This document shows, one piece after another, positions 3 through 12,245 of a stretch of DNA of 64,000 nucleotides. Both the position numbers and the translations under genes were made by a program. Positions within the stretch are counted from its first letter, which is position 1, and each line of letters begins with the position of its first letter. The DNA is from a bacterium (GTDB taxonomy: Bacteria; UBA10199; 2-02-FULL-44-16; JAAZCA01): the NCBI GenBank assembly GCA_021810905.1, contig JAJZQH010000002.1, forward strand, positions 124,001-188,000. The letters run 5' to 3'. The notes beneath the pieces are model-generated. The model did not search any database. It was not told the origin of the DNA and worked only from the letters and a program-made list of their open reading frames with translations.

Positions 3-497
3 ATCGCTACGATCGAAGAAGCGATGCCCGAAGGAAGCGGACCGCTGATCGAAGTCATGGCCAACAATAACGACTGGGTACTGAGCCACGGCCTGACGCA
101 TCAGCAGTTAGCGCAAGATCTGAATTACGCACGCTGGGTTAGCGCCAACACGGAGGCCGTGGAGGATTCTAATCCTGAGCGCTATTTTCAGAGGCGAGGG
201 GCCGGCGATTTTTATGATCAGGAGATCGCGAATACAGAGTTTGGAAATTTAGGGGACGTGCATGAGTTTGTCCTGTACGGACAACGCTTCATAACAATTA
301 CTTCAGATCGGCATGTTGCTCAGGGCTCGCCTTTCCGCGACGGCCTTCGAGGGAGTCGTAAGATCATGGTCGTAAATATGGACGCCAGGAAGCTGGTCGT
401 CTTTGACGAAATCCTTTCGGACTTGATCGGCAGATACGGAGTCTATAACGAAATTCCCCCTCAGCAGATCGCCGAGGTATTCGGGCTTATTCCTTGA
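3..497 (+). CDS. hypothetical protein, probably 5'-truncated by the window edge
   Basis: The reading frame is open from the first complete codon of the window, and an ATG lies at 24. No ribosome-binding site is visible before that ATG, so the gene may begin outside the window. About 157 residues can be read from the ATG. The product looks soluble, with no signal peptide or membrane segment and a mixed alpha/beta composition. I do not recognise the family. Its 3' end overlaps the 3' end of gatE on the other strand by 11 nt, a tail-to-tail overlap. Function unknown. Confidence 0.5.
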   Translation: MATIEEAMPEGSGPLIEVMANNNDWVLSHGLTHQQLAQDLNYARWVSANTEAVEDSNPERYFQRRGAGDFYDQEIANTEFGNLGDVHEFVLYGQRFITITSDRHVAQGSPFRDGLRGSRKIMVVNMDARKLVVFDEILSDLIGRYGVYNEIPPQQIAEVFGLIP

Positions 498-2199
498 TGG
501 AAGAGATGAGCGAGGAGATTTCCAGCGCCGGATCGGCGGTGATTGCCTTGAGGACGGGTTCGTAATTTTTCTGTGGGACTTTTTCCGATAAGAGCTTCGT
601 CGCCAGCTCGATCCAGGTGCGGTCGTCGATTTTATCCACCGAAATTCCCTGCCTGCCCAGGCTGCGTACCGCTTGCCCCATGAGCCTGCCAACGAGCTTC
701 ATGTCGATTTTCTGCCTTGCGAGTTCGTCTACGAGCTTGATGCGCGGCGAGAGCGCAAGATCGGCGATCGCGTCCTCAGGAATCCCGTATGAGCGGAAGC
801 GCTCCTCAATTTTGTACGTCGGTTCCGGCAGCGCATTGCGTATCCGTTCGACCCTTTCTGCTGCGATGCGGACCGGTGGATGATCCGTGTCCGGATACAT
901 GCGATCCGCACCCGGGAGTATGCGCTCGAAGTCGGTGAGCCCGTCGCGCAGGTGCTGCCGCGTTTCGCATGGCACGCCGTCGCACGCCTCGACGATGCGG
1001 TTTTTGATCTCCGCGGTTGCGGTGATCGTATCTCCCTCCGGCCCCCATACGATCACTCCGACGTCCTGCGGCCCGAGCTTGAGCGCCAGACGAATTGCGC
1101 GGCTGTCGATGTGGTTGCGCGTATATTCCGGGTAGTTGTCCGTATGAAAAAGATTGGGAATTTCATCGAGGCATGCGATCACGCGCACCCTGCCCGCAAG
1201 TTCCGAAGAAAACATCCTGCCAGGCTGCGTGGGCGTATTGAGTATGCCCGAAAGTCCAACGAGCTTGATCGCGCGTATGCGATGCCCTTTTGCGATCGCG
1301 TCTGAGAGAATGGGCGATCGCGAATTGCGCAGCACGTCGGTGATGTCTTCTTCAACCGCCTTGAGCGAATCCTGCGTGATCTTCCTGCGTTTGAGCTCGT
1401 CGCGAATCTCCAGCAGCGCTTTCTGCCTCAAGGCCTCGATTCGCGTGAGCGCCGGTATCAGCTGATAGCGCGGCACGCCCTTGATCTCCACGCGCCTGCC
1501 GCCCTCGATCGATACGTTTACGTCCTGCCTTACAGCGCCTATCCCGCGCCGCACTTTTCCTGATGCGCGCAAAAGCCTGCCGATGTGGCGCACGCCGCGC
1601 GCAGCCTCTTCGGGTGACTTGAAGCAGGCCTCGGTCACCACCTCGATGAGCGGCATGCCAAGGCGATCGGTTCTGAAATGTATGAAGTGGCCGGAGTCCT
1701 CGACCTCGCGGCACGCGTCTTCTTCTATGGAAAAATGCGAGACGCCGATTTTTTTTCCCTCGAACGGAATCGAGCCGTTGATGCCTACGATTCCGGTGCG
1801 CTGAAAACCCGTAGGAATAGAGCCGTCGAGGTACTGCTTGCGCGCGATGTGCATCTCATCGACGACCCCGCAACCGCAGAGGAGCGCGAGCTCTATGGCG
1901 ATTTCCAACGCCTGCTCGTTGATCGGGAACGGAGGAGTGTCGTCCATATCGTAAGTGCAGACGGACTCCTTGTTCAGGAGATAGACGATCTCCTTCTTTG
2001 TCTTGAACTCCATGAGCGCGCAGCCGTCGTACACGCCCATTTCAGAGAGCGTGGGCCGCATGTGCCTGAGCACCTCGGCGTGATGCTCGGTGGAATAGAG
2101 CCCGGCCGGGCAGCGGCAGAAAAGCTTCTTATCGGTGAGGAGCTGCTGGTGGATCTCAACGCCGCATTTGAATCCGAGTTTGTTCAGATCTCTGTCCAT
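487..2199 (-). CDS. gatE: Glu-tRNA(Gln) amidotransferase subunit E (archaeal-type GatE)
   Basis: GatE is the tRNA-binding kinase/amidotransferase subunit of GatDE. It activates Glu on mischarged Glu-tRNA(Gln) and uses ammonia from GatD to make Gln-tRNA(Gln). The 570 aa protein opens with the GatB/GatE cradle signature (GVEIHQQL at about 13-20, KLFCRCP at about 25-31). The middle (about 310-420) contains PGRMFSSELAGRVR and resembles the GAD insertion that separates GatE from GatB. The C-terminus is the helical YqeY-like tail. It is a little shorter than typical archaeal GatE (about 620 aa). It starts 60 bp after the histidine kinase, probably in one minus-strand operon. GatDE is normally archaeal, so its presence in a bacterium is unusual. 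Confidence 0.9.
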   Translation of the reverse strand: MDRDLNKLGFKCGVEIHQQLLTDKKLFCRCPAGLYSTEHHAEVLRHMRPTLSEMGVYDGCALMEFKTKKEIVYLLNKESVCTYDMDDTPPFPINEQALEIAIELALLCGCGVVDEMHIARKQYLDGSIPTGFQRTGIVGINGSIPFEGKKIGVSHFSIEEDACREVEDSGHFIHFRTDRLGMPLIEVVTEACFKSPEEAARGVRHIGRLLRASGKVRRGIGAVRQDVNVSIEGGRRVEIKGVPRYQLIPALTRIEALRQKALLEIRDELKRRKITQDSLKAVEEDITDVLRNSRSPILSDAIAKGHRIRAIKLVGLSGILNTPTQPGRMFSSELAGRVRVIACLDEIPNLFHTDNYPEYTRNHIDSRAIRLALKLGPQDVGVIVWGPEGDTITATAEIKNRIVEACDGVPCETRQHLRDGLTDFERILPGADRMYPDTDHPPVRIAAERVERIRNALPEPTYKIEERFRSYGIPEDAIADLALSPRIKLVDELARQKIDMKLVGRLMGQAVRSLGRQGISVDKIDDRTWIELATKLLSEKVPQKNYEPVLKAITADPALEISSLISSIKE

Positions 2200-2259
2200 G
2201 GAATTTGGCGGGCACCATAGCGGGGATCACCTTCCCGGTCAAAATAATCCTGAGGACGA

Positions 2260-3459
2260 TCATTTTTTGTCGTTGTTCGAGAACGATGTAAGGGGAATGG
2301 TGACGACAAACTCGGTTCCGGTCTTTTTTGAGCGTGCGACCCTGATCGATCCGCCATAGCGCTCCACGATCTCCCTGGATATCGAAAGGCCGAGTCCGAG
2401 GCCGTGGCGATTTCTGCGCGTTGTAAAAAAAGGCTCAAAGATTTTTTCCATATTTTCACGCAAAATGCCGCAGCCGGTGTCGCTGACAAGGATTTCAACA
2501 CGGTTTTCCGTGCGTCGACTGGAGATGGAGAGCGTCCCTCCGCCCTCCATGGCGTCGATGGCATTGTTTACAAGATTGAGGAAGACCTGATCCAGATCTC
2601 CGCGCCGCGCCTGTATAGTATGGATGTCGGAGTCGAGCGCAACACTGACGGCAACGCCTCTCTTTTTACACTCCAGCCCGGCAAAATCGACGATGCCCTT
2701 AAGCACAGCGTTGATATCCACGGTGACGAGTTCCGGTTGGCCGCGGATATTCACCTTTGCAAGCGACAACATGCAGTCGATGATCTGCTTCATTGCGACA
2801 ATTGTGGATCGCAGGCTGTTGAGTTGATTTACAGCGGAAGGCGTCTTGACGGGCTCGTCCAGAAGCGCGTCGACAAGGAGCAGTGCGCCGCACAAGGGGC
2901 TGTTGAGCTGATGCGCGATACCCGCCCCCATCCGCCCCATGGCGGCAAGTTTGGCCGAGTTGAAGAGGTCGATGCGTATGAGGTCGAGTTCCCGGGTGCG
3001 TTCCTTAATCAATTGTTCAAGGTTATCCGAATAGGCCTTGAGCTTCTCCTCTACAGCCTTCTGTTCGCTGATATCGCGGATAGTGCCGATCATCCCCACG
3101 GGCTTGCCGCTCGCATCGCGCAGAGTGGAATTATTCATGAGTGTGGGGAACGGCGTTCCATCGCTTCGGACGTGCCAGATTTCTCCGCTGAAATGTCCGG
3201 TTTCAAGGATCTGCTTGTTCGCTGCCGCTACTGCCGGGAGCTGATCTTTGGAATGAAATATTGCGAGATTCTTGCCCACAAGATCTTCCGAGCGGTAACC
3301 GTGCATTGATGCGAAGGCATGGTTGACGAACACGATATCGCCCTTGAGATCGACCACAGCTATGCCCTCAGAGCATTGTTCGGCCGCCATCGTGAGCAGG
3401 GTCGATCTGTCCGTCGAGAGCATGTCTTCAAGTATCGCTTGTGGTGTTTTATCATCCAT
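2260..3459 (-). CDS. PAS-domain sensor histidine kinase
   Basis: This is a soluble two-component histidine kinase of 399 aa. A PAS domain (about 25-130, with GIAVVDLKGDIVFVNHAF) ends in the PAC-like tail GTIRDISEQK and is followed by a coiled coil (about 135-165). The dimerisation helix carries the phospho-acceptor His183 in AGIAHQLNSPL. The ATPase domain has the N box NLVNNAIDAM (295-304), G1 DTGCGI (327-332), F box FEPFFTT and G2 GLGLGLSI (353-360). There are no membrane segments, so it senses a cytoplasmic signal. It starts 5 bp after the V4R gene, which suggests that the V4R protein feeds it a signal. No response regulator is adjacent. Confidence 0.92.
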   Translation of the reverse strand: MDDKTPQAILEDMLSTDRSTLLTMAAEQCSEGIAVVDLKGDIVFVNHAFASMHGYRSEDLVGKNLAIFHSKDQLPAVAAANKQILETGHFSGEIWHVRSDGTPFPTLMNNSTLRDASGKPVGMIGTIRDISEQKAVEEKLKAYSDNLEQLIKERTRELDLIRIDLFNSAKLAAMGRMGAGIAHQLNSPLCGALLLVDALLDEPVKTPSAVNQLNSLRSTIVAMKQIIDCMLSLAKVNIRGQPELVTVDINAVLKGIVDFAGLECKKRGVAVSVALDSDIHTIQARRGDLDQVFLNLVNNAIDAMEGGGTLSISSRRTENRVEILVSDTGCGILRENMEKIFEPFFTTRRNRHGLGLGLSISREIVERYGGSIRVARSKKTGTEFVVTIPLTSFSNNDKK

Positions 3460-3464
3460 AGCGC

Positions 3465-4334
3465 TTACACCTGGTAACGCGGCGGCTTGCCCGAGTTCTT
3501 GAGCAATGCATTCACCTCGCGCTTGAGCTCCAACATGCGCAGCTCGCGGTCGGCCATGAAGGCGTTGAGCTTCTCGATTTCATCTATATGTCTTCGCAGC
3601 TCTTCTTCAAGGCGTTTGCGCGCAAAGAAATCGGGTATGGAATATCCGGAGGCGCGCATTGCCATCTCCGGCCTCTCTTTCATATAACGGTTGATGTGCT
3701 CCTCGATCCTGGCAGGAGGCGCCATTATGAACCTGCAGCAGTCATCCCCCCTGGCCTGGCACAGGATTTCGCTGGCCACGAGGGTAACGCCAAAGCTCTC
3801 CTCGCACCATCCCGAAGAATATCCGGCGTTCATGATGCATACGGGGAAAGTGGATGAACGCCCTTGCCGCTTCCACGCGTCCGACTCAAAAGAATACGGA
3901 TGGTCATAGATGAGCAGGTATTCCTCATCCGGAGAAGGATGCGATTCTGGGAAGATATCGACAAAGGCCCAACCGGTGTGGGAAAAGTGGATCGGTCCGG
4001 CGGATAGTTTCTCAAGCGGTTCGTGCAGGTTCATCTTTTCCTGAAAATTCCGCGCATCGGATTTGCCAAGGGCATGGGCTAGATCGAACAGCAGGTTGAG
4101 GGCGAATTCCCGCGCCTCCTTCTCGCGCCCACGCCCAAAGAGCCCTTCCACGAGATCGAAAAATTCTATGGCAAGGGCCGGGGCCCTGATCATTACATAG
4201 CGGTCGCCGGAGATTTCGACGGTGCCTTTTGTCGGGTCGTCTTTTCTGTGTTTGAAATATTCCGAGACCACCGCTTCTGCGCGTTCGAAGAGAGGCTGCA
4301 TCTGTTCTGGAACTTTTACCGTCTGGGTAATCAT
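3465..4334 (-). CDS. XylR_N/V4R-domain ligand-sensing protein with C-terminal coiled coil
   Basis: The protein (289 aa) has an XylR_N-like N-terminal half. A V4R domain follows at about 175-225, with GYSSGWCEESFGV followed by a Cys-rich CQARGDDCCRFIM segment. The end is a coiled coil (about 240-280). V4R domains bind small hydrophobic molecules and usually head sigma-54 activators, but no AAA+ or DNA-binding domain is present here. I chose the ATG at 4334 over the upstream ATG at 4349 because GGAGG lies 6 nt before it. It is co-directional with the histidine kinase 5 bp downstream, so sensor input by protein contact is a reasonable inference. Confidence 0.8.
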   Translation of the reverse strand: MITQTVKVPEQMQPLFERAEAVVSEYFKHRKDDPTKGTVEISGDRYVMIRAPALAIEFFDLVEGLFGRGREKEAREFALNLLFDLAHALGKSDARNFQEKMNLHEPLEKLSAGPIHFSHTGWAFVDIFPESHPSPDEEYLLIYDHPYSFESDAWKRQGRSSTFPVCIMNAGYSSGWCEESFGVTLVASEILCQARGDDCCRFIMAPPARIEEHINRYMKERPEMAMRASGYSIPDFFARKRLEEELRRHIDEIEKLNAFMADRELRMLELKREVNALLKNSGKPPRYQV

Positions 4335-4496
4335 CCGCGCCCTCCACATAAGGATCGATTGCGTGGGGATGGTTTATTGAAATACTAGCAGCTATGCGCA
4401 TTTGTGGCAATGCATCAAAAACGATGACCGCCTGGCCAGTTCTGGGCAATATCTCTTCATTGACAACATGAGGAATTGGGATAGAGGTGGCGCACC

Positions 4497-5882
4497 ATGA
4501 GCGATGACGATCCATACAAGGGCTACCGCGAACCGGCGCTTTCTCTGCTCAAGAAGAGCGGTGCGGCCGTGTGGGATAACGTCGAAATTGAGACGGTGAA
4601 GGGCCCGTTTGCCGGGCTCATACTCCCGCGCTCCACGACCGAGGATGCTGAGCACATCGTCATAAAGATGGCTTCGGGCTACAACACCGGCGTCCACGTC
4701 AGTTCAATAAAAAAAATAAAAAAAATTGGTCACCGAGAGGGGCACTACGCCATACCGGAGAAGGAATTTCCCTACGACAAGAGAAAGCGCAACGTCACGC
4801 TGCTTGGCACCGGAGGCACCATCGCCTCGCGGCTTGATTACAAGACCGGAGCCGTGGTTCCAGCTTTTTCCCCCGGCGAACTCTACGGCGCGGTGCCGGA
4901 ACTTGCCGACGTCTGCAATCTCACCACAAAGAAACTCTTCGGAGTTTTCTCCGAAAACATGGGACCTGAGCAATATAAGGCTCTGGCAGAGGAGATAGGC
5001 AGGCTCATCCGAGAGGGCGTGCATGGAATAGTTATCGGGCATGGAACGGACACCATGCATCACACGGCGGCGATCCTCTCATACATGGTGCAGAATCCGC
5101 CCGTGCCGATCGTGCTCGTGGGCTCGCAGCGATCGAGCGACCGCCCTTCTTCCGACGCCGCGCGCAATCTCCTGAACTCCACGTTCACCGCGGCGCACTC
5201 GGATCTGGCGGAGATCATGGTCTGCATGTTCGGCCCCACGTCCGATGATTACGGGCTGCTGCATGTCGGCACGCGCGTACGCAAGATGCACTCGAGCTAC
5301 CGCTCCACGTTCCGCACCATAAGCGATATACCGCTCGCCATGGTCTGGCCGGATCGCGTGGTGCCGTTGCGCGCGTGTCGCAAGCGCCGCACCGACCGAG
5401 AGGTGACGATCAACACCGCTTATGACGATCGCGTCACGATCCTCTATTATTACCCGGGCATGAATCCGGACATCGTGGACGCGCTCGTGGATAATGGCTA
5501 CCACGGCATCGTGATCGCCGGCACGGGGCTCGGGCACGTGAACGCAGCGCTCAACCCTGCGCTCAAACGCGCGATCGACGCCGGTGTAGCCGTCGTCATG
5601 ACGGTCCAGACTCTCTGGGGATACGTACACATGAACGTCTATGACACCGGAAGGTATCTCCTGGAGCTGGGCATCATCCCCTGCGAGAACATGATCCCCG
5701 AGGCCGCGTACATGAAGCTCTGCTGGACGCTCGGCCAGACTCGCGATCTCGCAAAAGTGCGCGAGATGATGCTCACGCCGATCGCTCACGAGATCACCGA
5801 GCGAGAGCCGCACAACGGCTATCTCGTCTACCAGGGCGGGATCCCCGAGGTTGAGCGCTTCCTCTCCACGTATAAGAAATAG
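4497..5882 (+). CDS. gatD: Glu-tRNA(Gln) amidotransferase subunit D (archaeal-type GatD)
   Basis: GatD is the L-asparaginase-like glutaminase/asparaginase subunit that supplies ammonia to GatE. The 461 aa protein has the short beta-barrel N-terminal domain typical of GatD (about 1-95). An asparaginase fold follows, with the first catalytic Thr block LLGTGGTIAS (about 101-110) and the second block GHGTDTMHHTA; the downstream GSQRSSDRPSSDAARNL block also fits the family. The N-terminal domain separates it from plain AnsA/AnsB asparaginases. It starts with ATG after GAGGTGG. It is divergent from the V4R/kinase/gatE operon, with 162 bp between start codons, so subunits D and E are transcribed in opposite directions. 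Confidence 0.92.
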   Translation: MSDDDPYKGYREPALSLLKKSGAAVWDNVEIETVKGPFAGLILPRSTTEDAEHIVIKMASGYNTGVHVSSIKKIKKIGHREGHYAIPEKEFPYDKRKRNVTLLGTGGTIASRLDYKTGAVVPAFSPGELYGAVPELADVCNLTTKKLFGVFSENMGPEQYKALAEEIGRLIREGVHGIVIGHGTDTMHHTAAILSYMVQNPPVPIVLVGSQRSSDRPSSDAARNLLNSTFTAAHSDLAEIMVCMFGPTSDDYGLLHVGTRVRKMHSSYRSTFRTISDIPLAMVWPDRVVPLRACRKRRTDREVTINTAYDDRVTILYYYPGMNPDIVDALVDNGYHGIVIAGTGLGHVNAALNPALKRAIDAGVAVVMTVQTLWGYVHMNVYDTGRYLLELGIIPCENMIPEAAYMKLCWTLGQTRDLAKVREMMLTPIAHEITEREPHNGYLVYQGGIPEVERFLSTYKK

Positions 5883-10590: not shown

Positions 10591-10655
10591 TCCCTTCGCA
10601 GCGTTTTGAAATGAATTCCAAGGCACGTGAATAGTGTTACGACTTGGATGAAATT

Positions 10656-11267
10656 ATGAATCAGGATGATCTCATCGCCAAATATTACTCATTGCTCGCG
10701 AAGTGGAACGAGAAGATGTCGCTCGTCTCTTCCGCGCGTGATGAAGCGGAATTCCGCGCAAAACATGTGGACGATGCCCTTGAACTGATTCCATTCCTCT
10801 CGAACGCGCGCACCGTGCTCGATCTCGGCACGGGGGCAGGCATTCCGGGCATCATTATCAAGATAGCTAGGCCGGATATTGAGCTGACGCTGCTCGATTC
10901 GATCCGCAAGAAGGTGAGTTTTTGTGATGAGGTCATCCGTCGCCTCGGCCTGGATCATATCAAAGCGGTGTGCGGCCGCGCTGAGGATGATCATGTCAGG
11001 ACCCTGCTTGGCCGTTTTGATGCCATCGTGTCGAGGGCGACGTGGCAAATTGAAAAATACCTAACAATATCAACGTGTTACTTGAATAAAAGCCCCTCTT
11101 CCAGGCTCATCGCGATGAAGGGTCCCTCCTGGAGGTCTGAACTAAATGCGGCAAAAAGCGCGATGCAGAAGCTTGGTGTGAAATTGGTGGAGACGTATGA
11201 GTATGAGCTCAAGGGCGGTGAGCGACGATGCATTTTGGCCTTCGGTGTGAAGAGTGTATCCTCTTGA
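10656..11267 (+). CDS. rsmG: 16S rRNA (guanine-527 N7) methyltransferase RsmG
   Basis: RsmG (GidB) methylates G527 of 16S rRNA using S-adenosylmethionine. The 203 aa protein carries the SAM-binding motif DLGTGAGIPGIIIKIARP, the acidic strand LTLLDSIRKKVSF and the catalytic-region SRATWQIEKYL. A TTG at 10644 is an alternative start; I chose the ATG at 10656 because the SAM-fold N-terminus begins there, although neither start has a strong ribosome-binding site. Placement just before parA parB is the classic origin-proximal arrangement, but mnmG is not next to it here. Confidence 0.9.
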   Translation: MNQDDLIAKYYSLLAKWNEKMSLVSSARDEAEFRAKHVDDALELIPFLSNARTVLDLGTGAGIPGIIIKIARPDIELTLLDSIRKKVSFCDEVIRRLGLDHIKAVCGRAEDDHVRTLLGRFDAIVSRATWQIEKYLTISTCYLNKSPSSRLIAMKGPSWRSELNAAKSAMQKLGVKLVETYEYELKGGERRCILAFGVKSVSS

Positions 11268-11474: not shown

Positions 11475-12245
11475 ATGGCCGAGGTGATTGCGATTTGTAA
11501 CCAGAAGGGCGGCGTAGGCAAGACCACGACCGCCATAAATCTCTCTGCTGCGCTGGCAGCAGCGGAAAAACGCACGCTGCTCATAGACCTGGATGCACAA
11601 GGCAACGCTACCACTGGAATGGGAATTGACAAGCACCACGTCGCCGGAAGCATCTATAATGTGATCATCGACGAAGCCGATCTCTCCACCCTCAGGCTCG
11701 ATACCGAACTCCCATTTCTCAAGATGCTCCCATCGAGCCCTTCCCTCGTTGGGGCTGAAGTCGAGTTGGTCAGCCTTGTTTCACGTGAAACAAGGCTCAA
11801 GCAGAGACTGGACGGCATCCGTAACGAATTTGACTATATCATTATAGATTGTCCCCCTTCGCTTGGGCTCCTGACGCTCAACGCATTGGTCGCGGCTGAT
11901 TCGGTGCTCATTCCGGTACAGTGTGAATACTATGCGATGGAGGGAATTGCTGACTTACAGCGAACCATAGCCCTCGTAAAGGGCCGGCTCAACCCCGGGC
12001 TTGCCACAAAGGGGATAATCCTCACCATGTTCGATTCTCGCAACAATCTTTCCCACCAGGTTCAGAATGAAATGAGAAATCATTTTAAAAACGCGGTGTT
12101 CCAAGTTGTCATACCGCGAAATGTCCGCCTGAGCGAGGCGCCAAGTTACGGGAAGCCTATACTTTTATACGACGTAGAATCAAAGGGCGCCCAGAGCTAT
12201 TTTGACTTGGCAAAAGAGATCCTGTCATCTGCCGCGCAGCAATAA
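11475..12245 (+). CDS. parA: chromosome-partitioning ATPase ParA (Soj)
   Basis: ParA is the deviant Walker ATPase that forms a nucleoid-bound gradient and moves ParB-parS complexes. The 256 aa protein has the Walker A motif KGGVGKTT (11-18), the A' region LIDLDAQGNATTGM, and Walker B IIIDCPPSLG. There is no N-terminal HTH, as expected for chromosomal ParA. The ATG starts the conserved AEVIAICNQKGGVGKTT strand directly; no strong ribosome-binding site is visible. An extended parS palindrome lies inside the coding sequence at 11773-11796, where it encodes part of LVSRETRL. parB follows after 42 bp. Confidence 0.96.
   Translation: MAEVIAICNQKGGVGKTTTAINLSAALAAAEKRTLLIDLDAQGNATTGMGIDKHHVAGSIYNVIIDEADLSTLRLDTELPFLKMLPSSPSLVGAEVELVSLVSRETRLKQRLDGIRNEFDYIIIDCPPSLGLLTLNALVAADSVLIPVQCEYYAMEGIADLQRTIALVKGRLNPGLATKGIILTMFDSRNNLSHQVQNEMRNHFKNAVFQVVIPRNVRLSEAPSYGKPILLYDVESKGAQSYFDLAKEILSSAAQQ
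11773..11796. promoter_or_regulatory. parS: parS site inside parA
   Basis: The 16-bp parS consensus (11777-11792) extends to a perfect 24-bp palindrome with flanking GCCT and AGGC. It lies wholly inside parA codons. ParB loading here would place the complex on the parAB operon itself. Confidence 0.95.

Follow-up and report, generated by a model that had tools for sequence, protein, structure and literature searches.

The gatE and gatD genes and their products

The stretch of DNA analysed here, 64,000 nucleotides long and called the window below, belongs to a bacterial draft genome (G000) and carries two genes, gatE and gatD, for the subunits of the Glu-tRNA(Gln) amidotransferase GatDE (Table 1). 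An earlier note, based on the sequence alone, had described them as a complete archaeal-type GatDE, the presence of which in a bacterium would imply either inter-domain transfer or an old bacterial lineage. Both genes are identified here as GatDE genes of a branch designated type 2 (GatDE2). They probably encode a two-subunit, glutamine-dependent Glu-tRNA(Gln) amidotransferase of this old, mostly bacterial branch, able to replace the bacterial amidotransferase GatCAB.

Table 1. Features of the window, with positions and strands. HMM, profile hidden Markov model; MAG, metagenome-assembled genome; f1, the window's family (four sampled members, G000-G003); f2, its sister family.
Feature	Position	Strand	Remarks
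Window	G000:C9:124001-188000		own draft genome, 2.98 Mb, 99.5% complete, 21 contigs
gatE, Glu-tRNA(Gln) amidotransferase subunit E, type 2 (bacterial branch)	487..2199	-	570 aa; HMMs, PDB, fold, tree
Active-site signature RKQYLDGSIPTGFQRT	1795..1842	-	GatE residues 120-135; subgroup comparison
AspRS-like (GAD) insertion of GatE	1006..1386	-	residues ~272-398; limits estimated
Short C-terminus of GatE	490..642	-	distal part of YqeY-type tail domain absent; common to f1 and f2; alignment
gatD, Glu-tRNA(Gln) amidotransferase subunit D, type 2	4497..5882	+	461 aa; HMMs, PDB, tree
GatD_N barrel domain of GatD	4566..4727	+	PF18195, 1.4e-12
Stretch with asparaginase-type active-site residues T108, T184, D185, K263	4818..5285	+	conservation and archaeal alignment
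PAS-HisKA-HATPase sensor kinase	2260..3459	-	between gatD and gatE; neighbour, no part of GatDE; domain profile matches
V4R-domain protein	3465..4349	-	neighbour; PF02830 match slightly below cut-off
rsmG	10644..11267	+	synteny anchor common to the window and an independent MAG
parA	11475..12245	+	synteny anchor common to the window and an independent MAG

GatE scores 533.8 bits on the equivalog NF003107 (cut-off 456) and 454.7 bits on TIGR00134 (cut-off 319.55), as against 117.6 bits on the GatB equivalog TIGR00133, which is under the cut-off of 314.8, and at most 138 bits on any GatB model. The closest sequences in the PDB are those of the archaeal enzymes of Pyrococcus abyssi (1zq1_C, 7.7e-101) and Methanothermobacter thermautotrophicus (2d6f_C, 1.9e-100). 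A Foldseek search with an AlphaFold model (predicted local distance difference test, pLDDT, 86; built on a 15-row alignment) again put 1zq1_C first (1.2e-47), followed by GatB structures and by AspRS chains over about 130 columns. These last matches are as expected from an AspRS-like insertion. Together with a GatB_N match stretched over positions 11-450, they bear out the GAD-like insertion that the earlier note had seen in GatE; the Pfam GAD model itself remains below threshold on this protein. At least 90% conservation in both branches of GatE (54 type-2 and 31 canonical sequences) was found for 64 residues, including E15, H17, R120, K121, D125, S127, E159-D161, R164, D226, N228, E238 and K240.

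The same note had called GatE complete, which does not hold in the archaeal sense. The C-terminal GatB_Yqey domain (PF02637), the tail domain by which the tRNA elbow is recognised, gave no match in GatE of the window or in its sister sequence L040, even at an E-value of 0.05, and was found in most other type-2 GatE, in canonical GatE and in the GatB proteins tested. Judging from these sequences, the absence is a shared loss in the order to which the window belongs, while the rest of the type-2 clade mostly keeps the domain. The accurate name is thus "GatDE without its tail", and it is the whole-protein equivalogs and the trees that support the family assignment. In the amidotransferases of archaea and bacteria, the tail domain reads the small D-loop of tRNA(Gln) and so helps to tell tRNA(Gln) from tRNA(Glu) (PMC4810234); since its distal part is missing here, the selection of tRNA by this GatDE is probably altered.

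GatD is as the note had described it. It scores 504 bits on NF003217 (cut-off 310) and 503 on TIGR02153 (cut-off 324), contains the GatD_N (PF18195), Asparaginase (PF00710) and Asparaginase_C (PF17763) domains, and has 1zq1_A as its top PDB match (5.6e-121), with GatD of M. thermautotrophicus also among the closest solved proteins; its structure model, with a pLDDT of 65, was left unused. T108, T184, D185 and K263, which we take to be the catalytic residues from what is established for the family, are invariant in ten type-2 GatD sequences and align with archaeal GatD. The catalytic domain is shared with type I L-asparaginases, from which GatD is set apart by the barrel, by a conserved extension at its C-terminus and by its gatE partner, and the score on the GatD equivalog (503 bits) compares with 378 on the type I asparaginase model. 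A plain type I or type II asparaginase is ruled out by the barrel and the gatE partner. The proteins therefore do not fall within GatB or the plain asparaginases, from which the HMM scores and the GatE tree described below keep them apart.

A second branch of GatDE

The archaeal enzymes are the best structural match, and both subunits resemble them over most of their length: they have in common the GatD_N barrel and asparaginase domain of GatD, the cradle and AspRS-like insertion of GatE, and the near-invariant GatE residues mentioned above. The phylogeny, however, separates the two. In a GatE tree rooted on GatB, the canonical archaeal sequences form one clade (support 100/99) and the type-2 sequences another (100/96), which comprises the window, every bacterial row of the tree and eight others whose genomes are related to a Thermoplasmata MAG. 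The GatD tree shows the same two-way split (99/98). The description "archaeal-type" therefore stands insofar as the equivalogs and PDB matches make the proteins GatDE; membership of the archaeal clade is contradicted by both trees. The rows from archaeal-related genomes diverge close to the base of type 2, with weak support, so that the branch may have begun in either domain.

Two long-branch rows that are hard to place, L036 and L199, were excluded from the rooted tree. L199 (genome G309) lies at the base of type 2. L036, from the bacterial genome G051, shows the gene order of archaea and, in a wider tree, falls with archaeal GatE; it is possibly a true inter-domain transfer or a case of mis-binning.

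The branches also differ close to the active site. Type-2 GatE carries RKQYLDGSIPTGFQRT in place of the RK-x-V-x-DGSNT-x-GFQRT of archaeal GatE, the corresponding sequence of GatB being RKNYFYPDLPKGYQ. In the sequences compared above, Y123, I128 and P129 of type 2 are V, N and T in archaeal GatE, and Y123 and P129 are shared by type 2 with GatB, with which GatE has the catalytic cradle in common. GatDE differs from GatCAB in having no GatA/GatC-type glutaminase, GatD being an asparaginase-family glutaminase, and in the AspRS-like insertion of GatE.

A further difference concerns gene order. In all 22 of the 22 canonical loci that hold both genes, gatD precedes gatE. At type-2 loci, gatE usually lies upstream of gatD (59 loci), with eight divergent pairs, like that of the window, three convergent pairs and five in the archaeal order; four of these five are in GC-rich DNA, where very long open frames obscure the order. 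The separate clades and the differing gene order are evidence against a recent acquisition of known archaeal GatDE and favour a second, old lineage: as far as the sequences tell, type 2 is such a lineage, sister to canonical archaeal GatDE. The earlier note's second option is thereby supported by both trees. That proteins of this kind are GatD and GatE is already known, in that annotation models name them so and sequence databases hold them so. What is new is, on the sequence comparisons, the type-2 bacterial branch with its own active-site signature and gene order, of which we found no description in the open-access full-text literature (a paper behind a subscription could be missed).

Distribution and the routes to Gln-tRNA(Gln)

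Type-2 GatE was found in 16 of 118 sampled bacterial genomes: the window's family with all of its four members, a sister family, two genomes from a further family of the same class, and nine more scattered over the domain. Within the phylum, gatD and gatE occur in exactly the same seven of 46 genomes and adjoin in most loci. A scan of GTDB r220 contigs with the bacterial GatE alignment yielded at least 549 confirmed relatives. The labels of the best 80 of these include Acidobacteriota, Myxococcota/Deltaproteobacteria, Planctomycetota, Ignavibacteria, Bacteroidota, Calditrichota, KSB1, Zixibacteria, Aminicenantes, Cloacimonetes, Neomarinimicrobiota, Caldisericia, WOR-3, others and one Thermoplasmata archaeon. 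The branch thus extends across at least a dozen bacterial phyla and also includes a few archaeal genomes. No close relative was found on a plasmid or phage; the sole plasmid match over most of the length is a GatE with 35% identity on a megaplasmid of the archaeon Natrinema.

Carriers are depleted in GatB. In the 118-genome sample, where phylogeny was handled solely by a per-family test and gaps in MAGs inflate absences, GatB is present in 8/16 carriers and 94/101 non-carriers (p 7e-5). With one genome per family outside the window's own class, the figures are 4/9 and 56/61 (p 0.002), and among genomes without GlnRS, 5/8 and 81/84 (p 0.008). From this depletion, GatDE2 seems to be able to substitute for GatCAB.

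In the genome of the window itself, the other enzymes that the earlier note had listed for a search, gatCAB, glnS, gltX and asnS, were looked for. An intact gatC-gatA-gatB operon lies on contig C12, apart from gatDE (its gatC, of 101 aa, was recognised by eye), and there are a single bacterial GluRS, an AsnRS, a bacterial-type AspRS and a LysRS; no GlnRS was found in this nearly complete draft. Given GatCAB, GluRS and AsnRS, GatDE is here a second amidotransferase, in principle dispensable for Gln-tRNA and Asn-tRNA, so that the consequences which the note had drawn for the charging of these tRNAs are weaker than claimed. The 43 tRNA matches in G000 (L006-L035, L227-L239) include a tRNA-Sec (L239); tRNA-Asn and tRNA-Ile were not identified among them despite the AsnRS, probably due to an assembly gap, and one match (L231, C19:860-961) was not called by ARAGORN.

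Both tRNA-Gln genes of G000 (UUG and CUG) have a U1-A72 pair, as do the tRNA-Gln from nine other carriers, judged by eye. An archaeal-type A1-U72 tRNA(Gln) was considered as a dedicated substrate and rejected, all the tRNA-Gln genes that were read being U1-A72; a second tRNA(Gln) could be missed, since the pattern search for the UUG tRNA-Gln, with its strict T-arm, matched in only 10 of 26 genomes. The classification of GluRS as discriminating or non-discriminating by the Arg358 rule was dropped because the rule fails across phyla (PMC3927822).

Several other genomes deserve mention. In the archaeal-related G262 (L202, L203) and G270 (L200, L201), there are two GatE genes each, the canonical one beside gatD and the type-2 one in the vicinity of glmU- and glmS-like genes, where the DNA examined contains no gatD. 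G126 (L075/L219; C44, C133), labelled a Thermoplasmata archaeon, has a GlnRS-family protein of 731.7 bits, above the glnS cut-off, a second, weaker GluRS/GlnRS-family match and type-2 GatDE; archaea are said to lack GlnRS, and contamination is possible. In G128 (L250) and G153 (L248, L249), two GluRS matches were obtained, one of them partial in the case of G128, and no GatB or GlnRS was found; these genomes could be candidates for GatDE2 as the only route to Gln-tRNA(Gln). In G075 (L051, L246), rated 100% complete, gatE is broken across the ends of two contigs and is followed by gatD, and GatB and GlnRS were again not found.

The role of GatDE2 and its implications

The most probable explanation is that gatE and gatD encode a working amidotransferase, vertically inherited in the order to which the window belongs. 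The asparaginase site of GatD would hydrolyse glutamine (or asparagine), and the ammonia set free would pass to GatE; with ATP, GatE would activate the side-chain carboxylate of the Glu on tRNA(Gln) and amidate it to Gln. In bacteria it would be able to replace GatCAB, mostly in species that also have GlnRS; here, beside an intact GatCAB, it would be an additional enzyme that probably serves as a backup or clears misacylated Glu-tRNA(Gln). The analysis establishes family membership, the two-clade phylogeny, the conserved catalytic residues, the co-inheritance of gatD and gatE, purifying selection on both genes, the presence of gatCAB and the rarity of GatB in carriers; the reaction, its tRNA substrate and the part it plays in the cell we infer.

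Several observations weigh against this explanation. GatE of the window is without the tail domain that helps to discriminate tRNA(Gln) from tRNA(Glu), and the tRNA-Gln of G000 is not of the A1-U72 kind that archaeal GatDE reads (PMC9499178). In a set of 64 carriers, 29 have GlnRS without GatB, 18 have both, 10 have GatB only and one has a GlnRS fragment; GlnRS is thus present in 47/64 and AsnRS in nearly all, so most carriers need no amidotransferase for either tRNA. Only six have neither GatB nor GlnRS, and some of these six are incomplete genomes. Finally, all four sampled genomes of the window's family keep GatDE2, whether they have GatCAB (G000, G002, G003) or GlnRS (G001, where the GlnRS gene lies beside gltX in the same setting as the gltX of G000, and GatB was not found). 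This retention under either route suggests a role beside the main route. The association tests, moreover, ignore phylogeny beyond the per-family version.

These points bring up the strongest alternative, which we consider unlikely though it has to be taken seriously: type-2 GatDE has changed its job and repairs the Glu-tRNA(Gln) that a relaxed GluRS produces where cells already charge tRNA(Gln) directly, or amidates another substrate. GlnRS is positively associated with the branch (8/16 carriers against 17/101 non-carriers, p 0.006; outside the window's own class, 6/9 against 16/61, p 0.02), and the chromosome-level genomes G103 (one contig), G122 (CP070707) and G162 (CP054675) have GlnRS, AsnRS and GatDE2, with GatB not found. 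The retention irrespective of route, the type-2 GatE that G262 and G270 hold besides a canonical one, the lost tail domain and the fixed changes adjoining the active site point the same way. On the other hand, the catalytic residues of GatE and the asparaginase site of GatD are conserved, the depletion of GatB, seen also without GlnRS, fits an ordinary substitute for GatCAB, and the GlnRS association may stem from shared phylogeny. Nor does the neighbourhood hint at another pathway: when 1403 open reading frames flanking 101 loci were clustered, nothing besides gatD recurred in more than six loci. The GlnRS association and the route-independent retention may nevertheless leave room for a repair role or another substrate.

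A decaying relic, in which GatDE is redundant with GatCAB and is being lost, with the loss of the tail as a first step, would account for the coexistence with gatCAB and for the truncated C-terminus of GatE. It is nonetheless improbable: the short C-terminus is common to at least two families, in which the proteins are 62-78% identical with intact active sites, and dN/dS (nonsynonymous over synonymous substitution rates) is 0.14 for gatE and 0.10 for gatD, compared with 0.095 for gltX (G000-G002), which indicates purifying selection, dS being saturated in most pairs so that these ratios rest on few of them.

The recent acquisition of an archaeal operon by this bacterium or a near ancestor, the first option of the earlier note, has in its favour that curated models name both proteins archaeal GatD and GatE and that the literature describes GatDE as archaeal only (PMC9499178). 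We give it very little weight, as the window lies outside a monophyletic canonical archaeal GatE, with GatD in agreement, and as GatDE is present throughout the sampled family (four genomes), in a sister family and in many phyla, with a gene order unlike the archaeal one. The active-site residues that type 2 shares with GatB and not with archaeal GatE also oppose it.

An assembly chimera or mis-binning, by which archaeal DNA became attached to a bacterial contig, has practically nothing in its favour apart from the window's origin in a draft assembly. An independent MAG of the same family (co234_bin13, L063/L256) repeats the divergent gatE and gatD followed by rsmG, parA, parB and the next gene, with 50-82% protein identity to the window, and sister genomes also carry GatDE. 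The genes hence belong to a genuine bacterial genome. In the relatives G001 and G003, gatE and gatD adjoin and are divergent; in the window, they are separated by the PAS kinase and V4R genes (2260-4349), oriented as gatE.

A wider proposal, which we put forward tentatively, is that bacteria possess a GatDE lineage equal in age to that of archaea, its active site being nearer to that of GatB, so that GatDE would be no archaeal invention, and that in most carriers it would serve as a clearing enzyme for Glu-tRNA(Gln) beside GlnRS or act on another substrate. We know of no amidotransferase with such a clearing role beside GlnRS.

In the picture drawn by reviews, GatDE is today confined to archaea, the bacteria possibly stem from a population with GatCAB alone, and the archaeal enzyme evolved together with A1-U72 tRNA(Gln) and prevented GlnRS from entering archaea (PMC9499178, citing Sheppard and Soll 2008). 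A bacterial clade that is sister to archaeal GatDE, often without GatCAB and often with GlnRS and a U1-A72 tRNA(Gln), contradicts the archaea-only premise and makes the order of events testable. The family of the window offers a natural experiment of its own, in which GatCAB was exchanged for GlnRS, or the reverse, and GatDE was retained.

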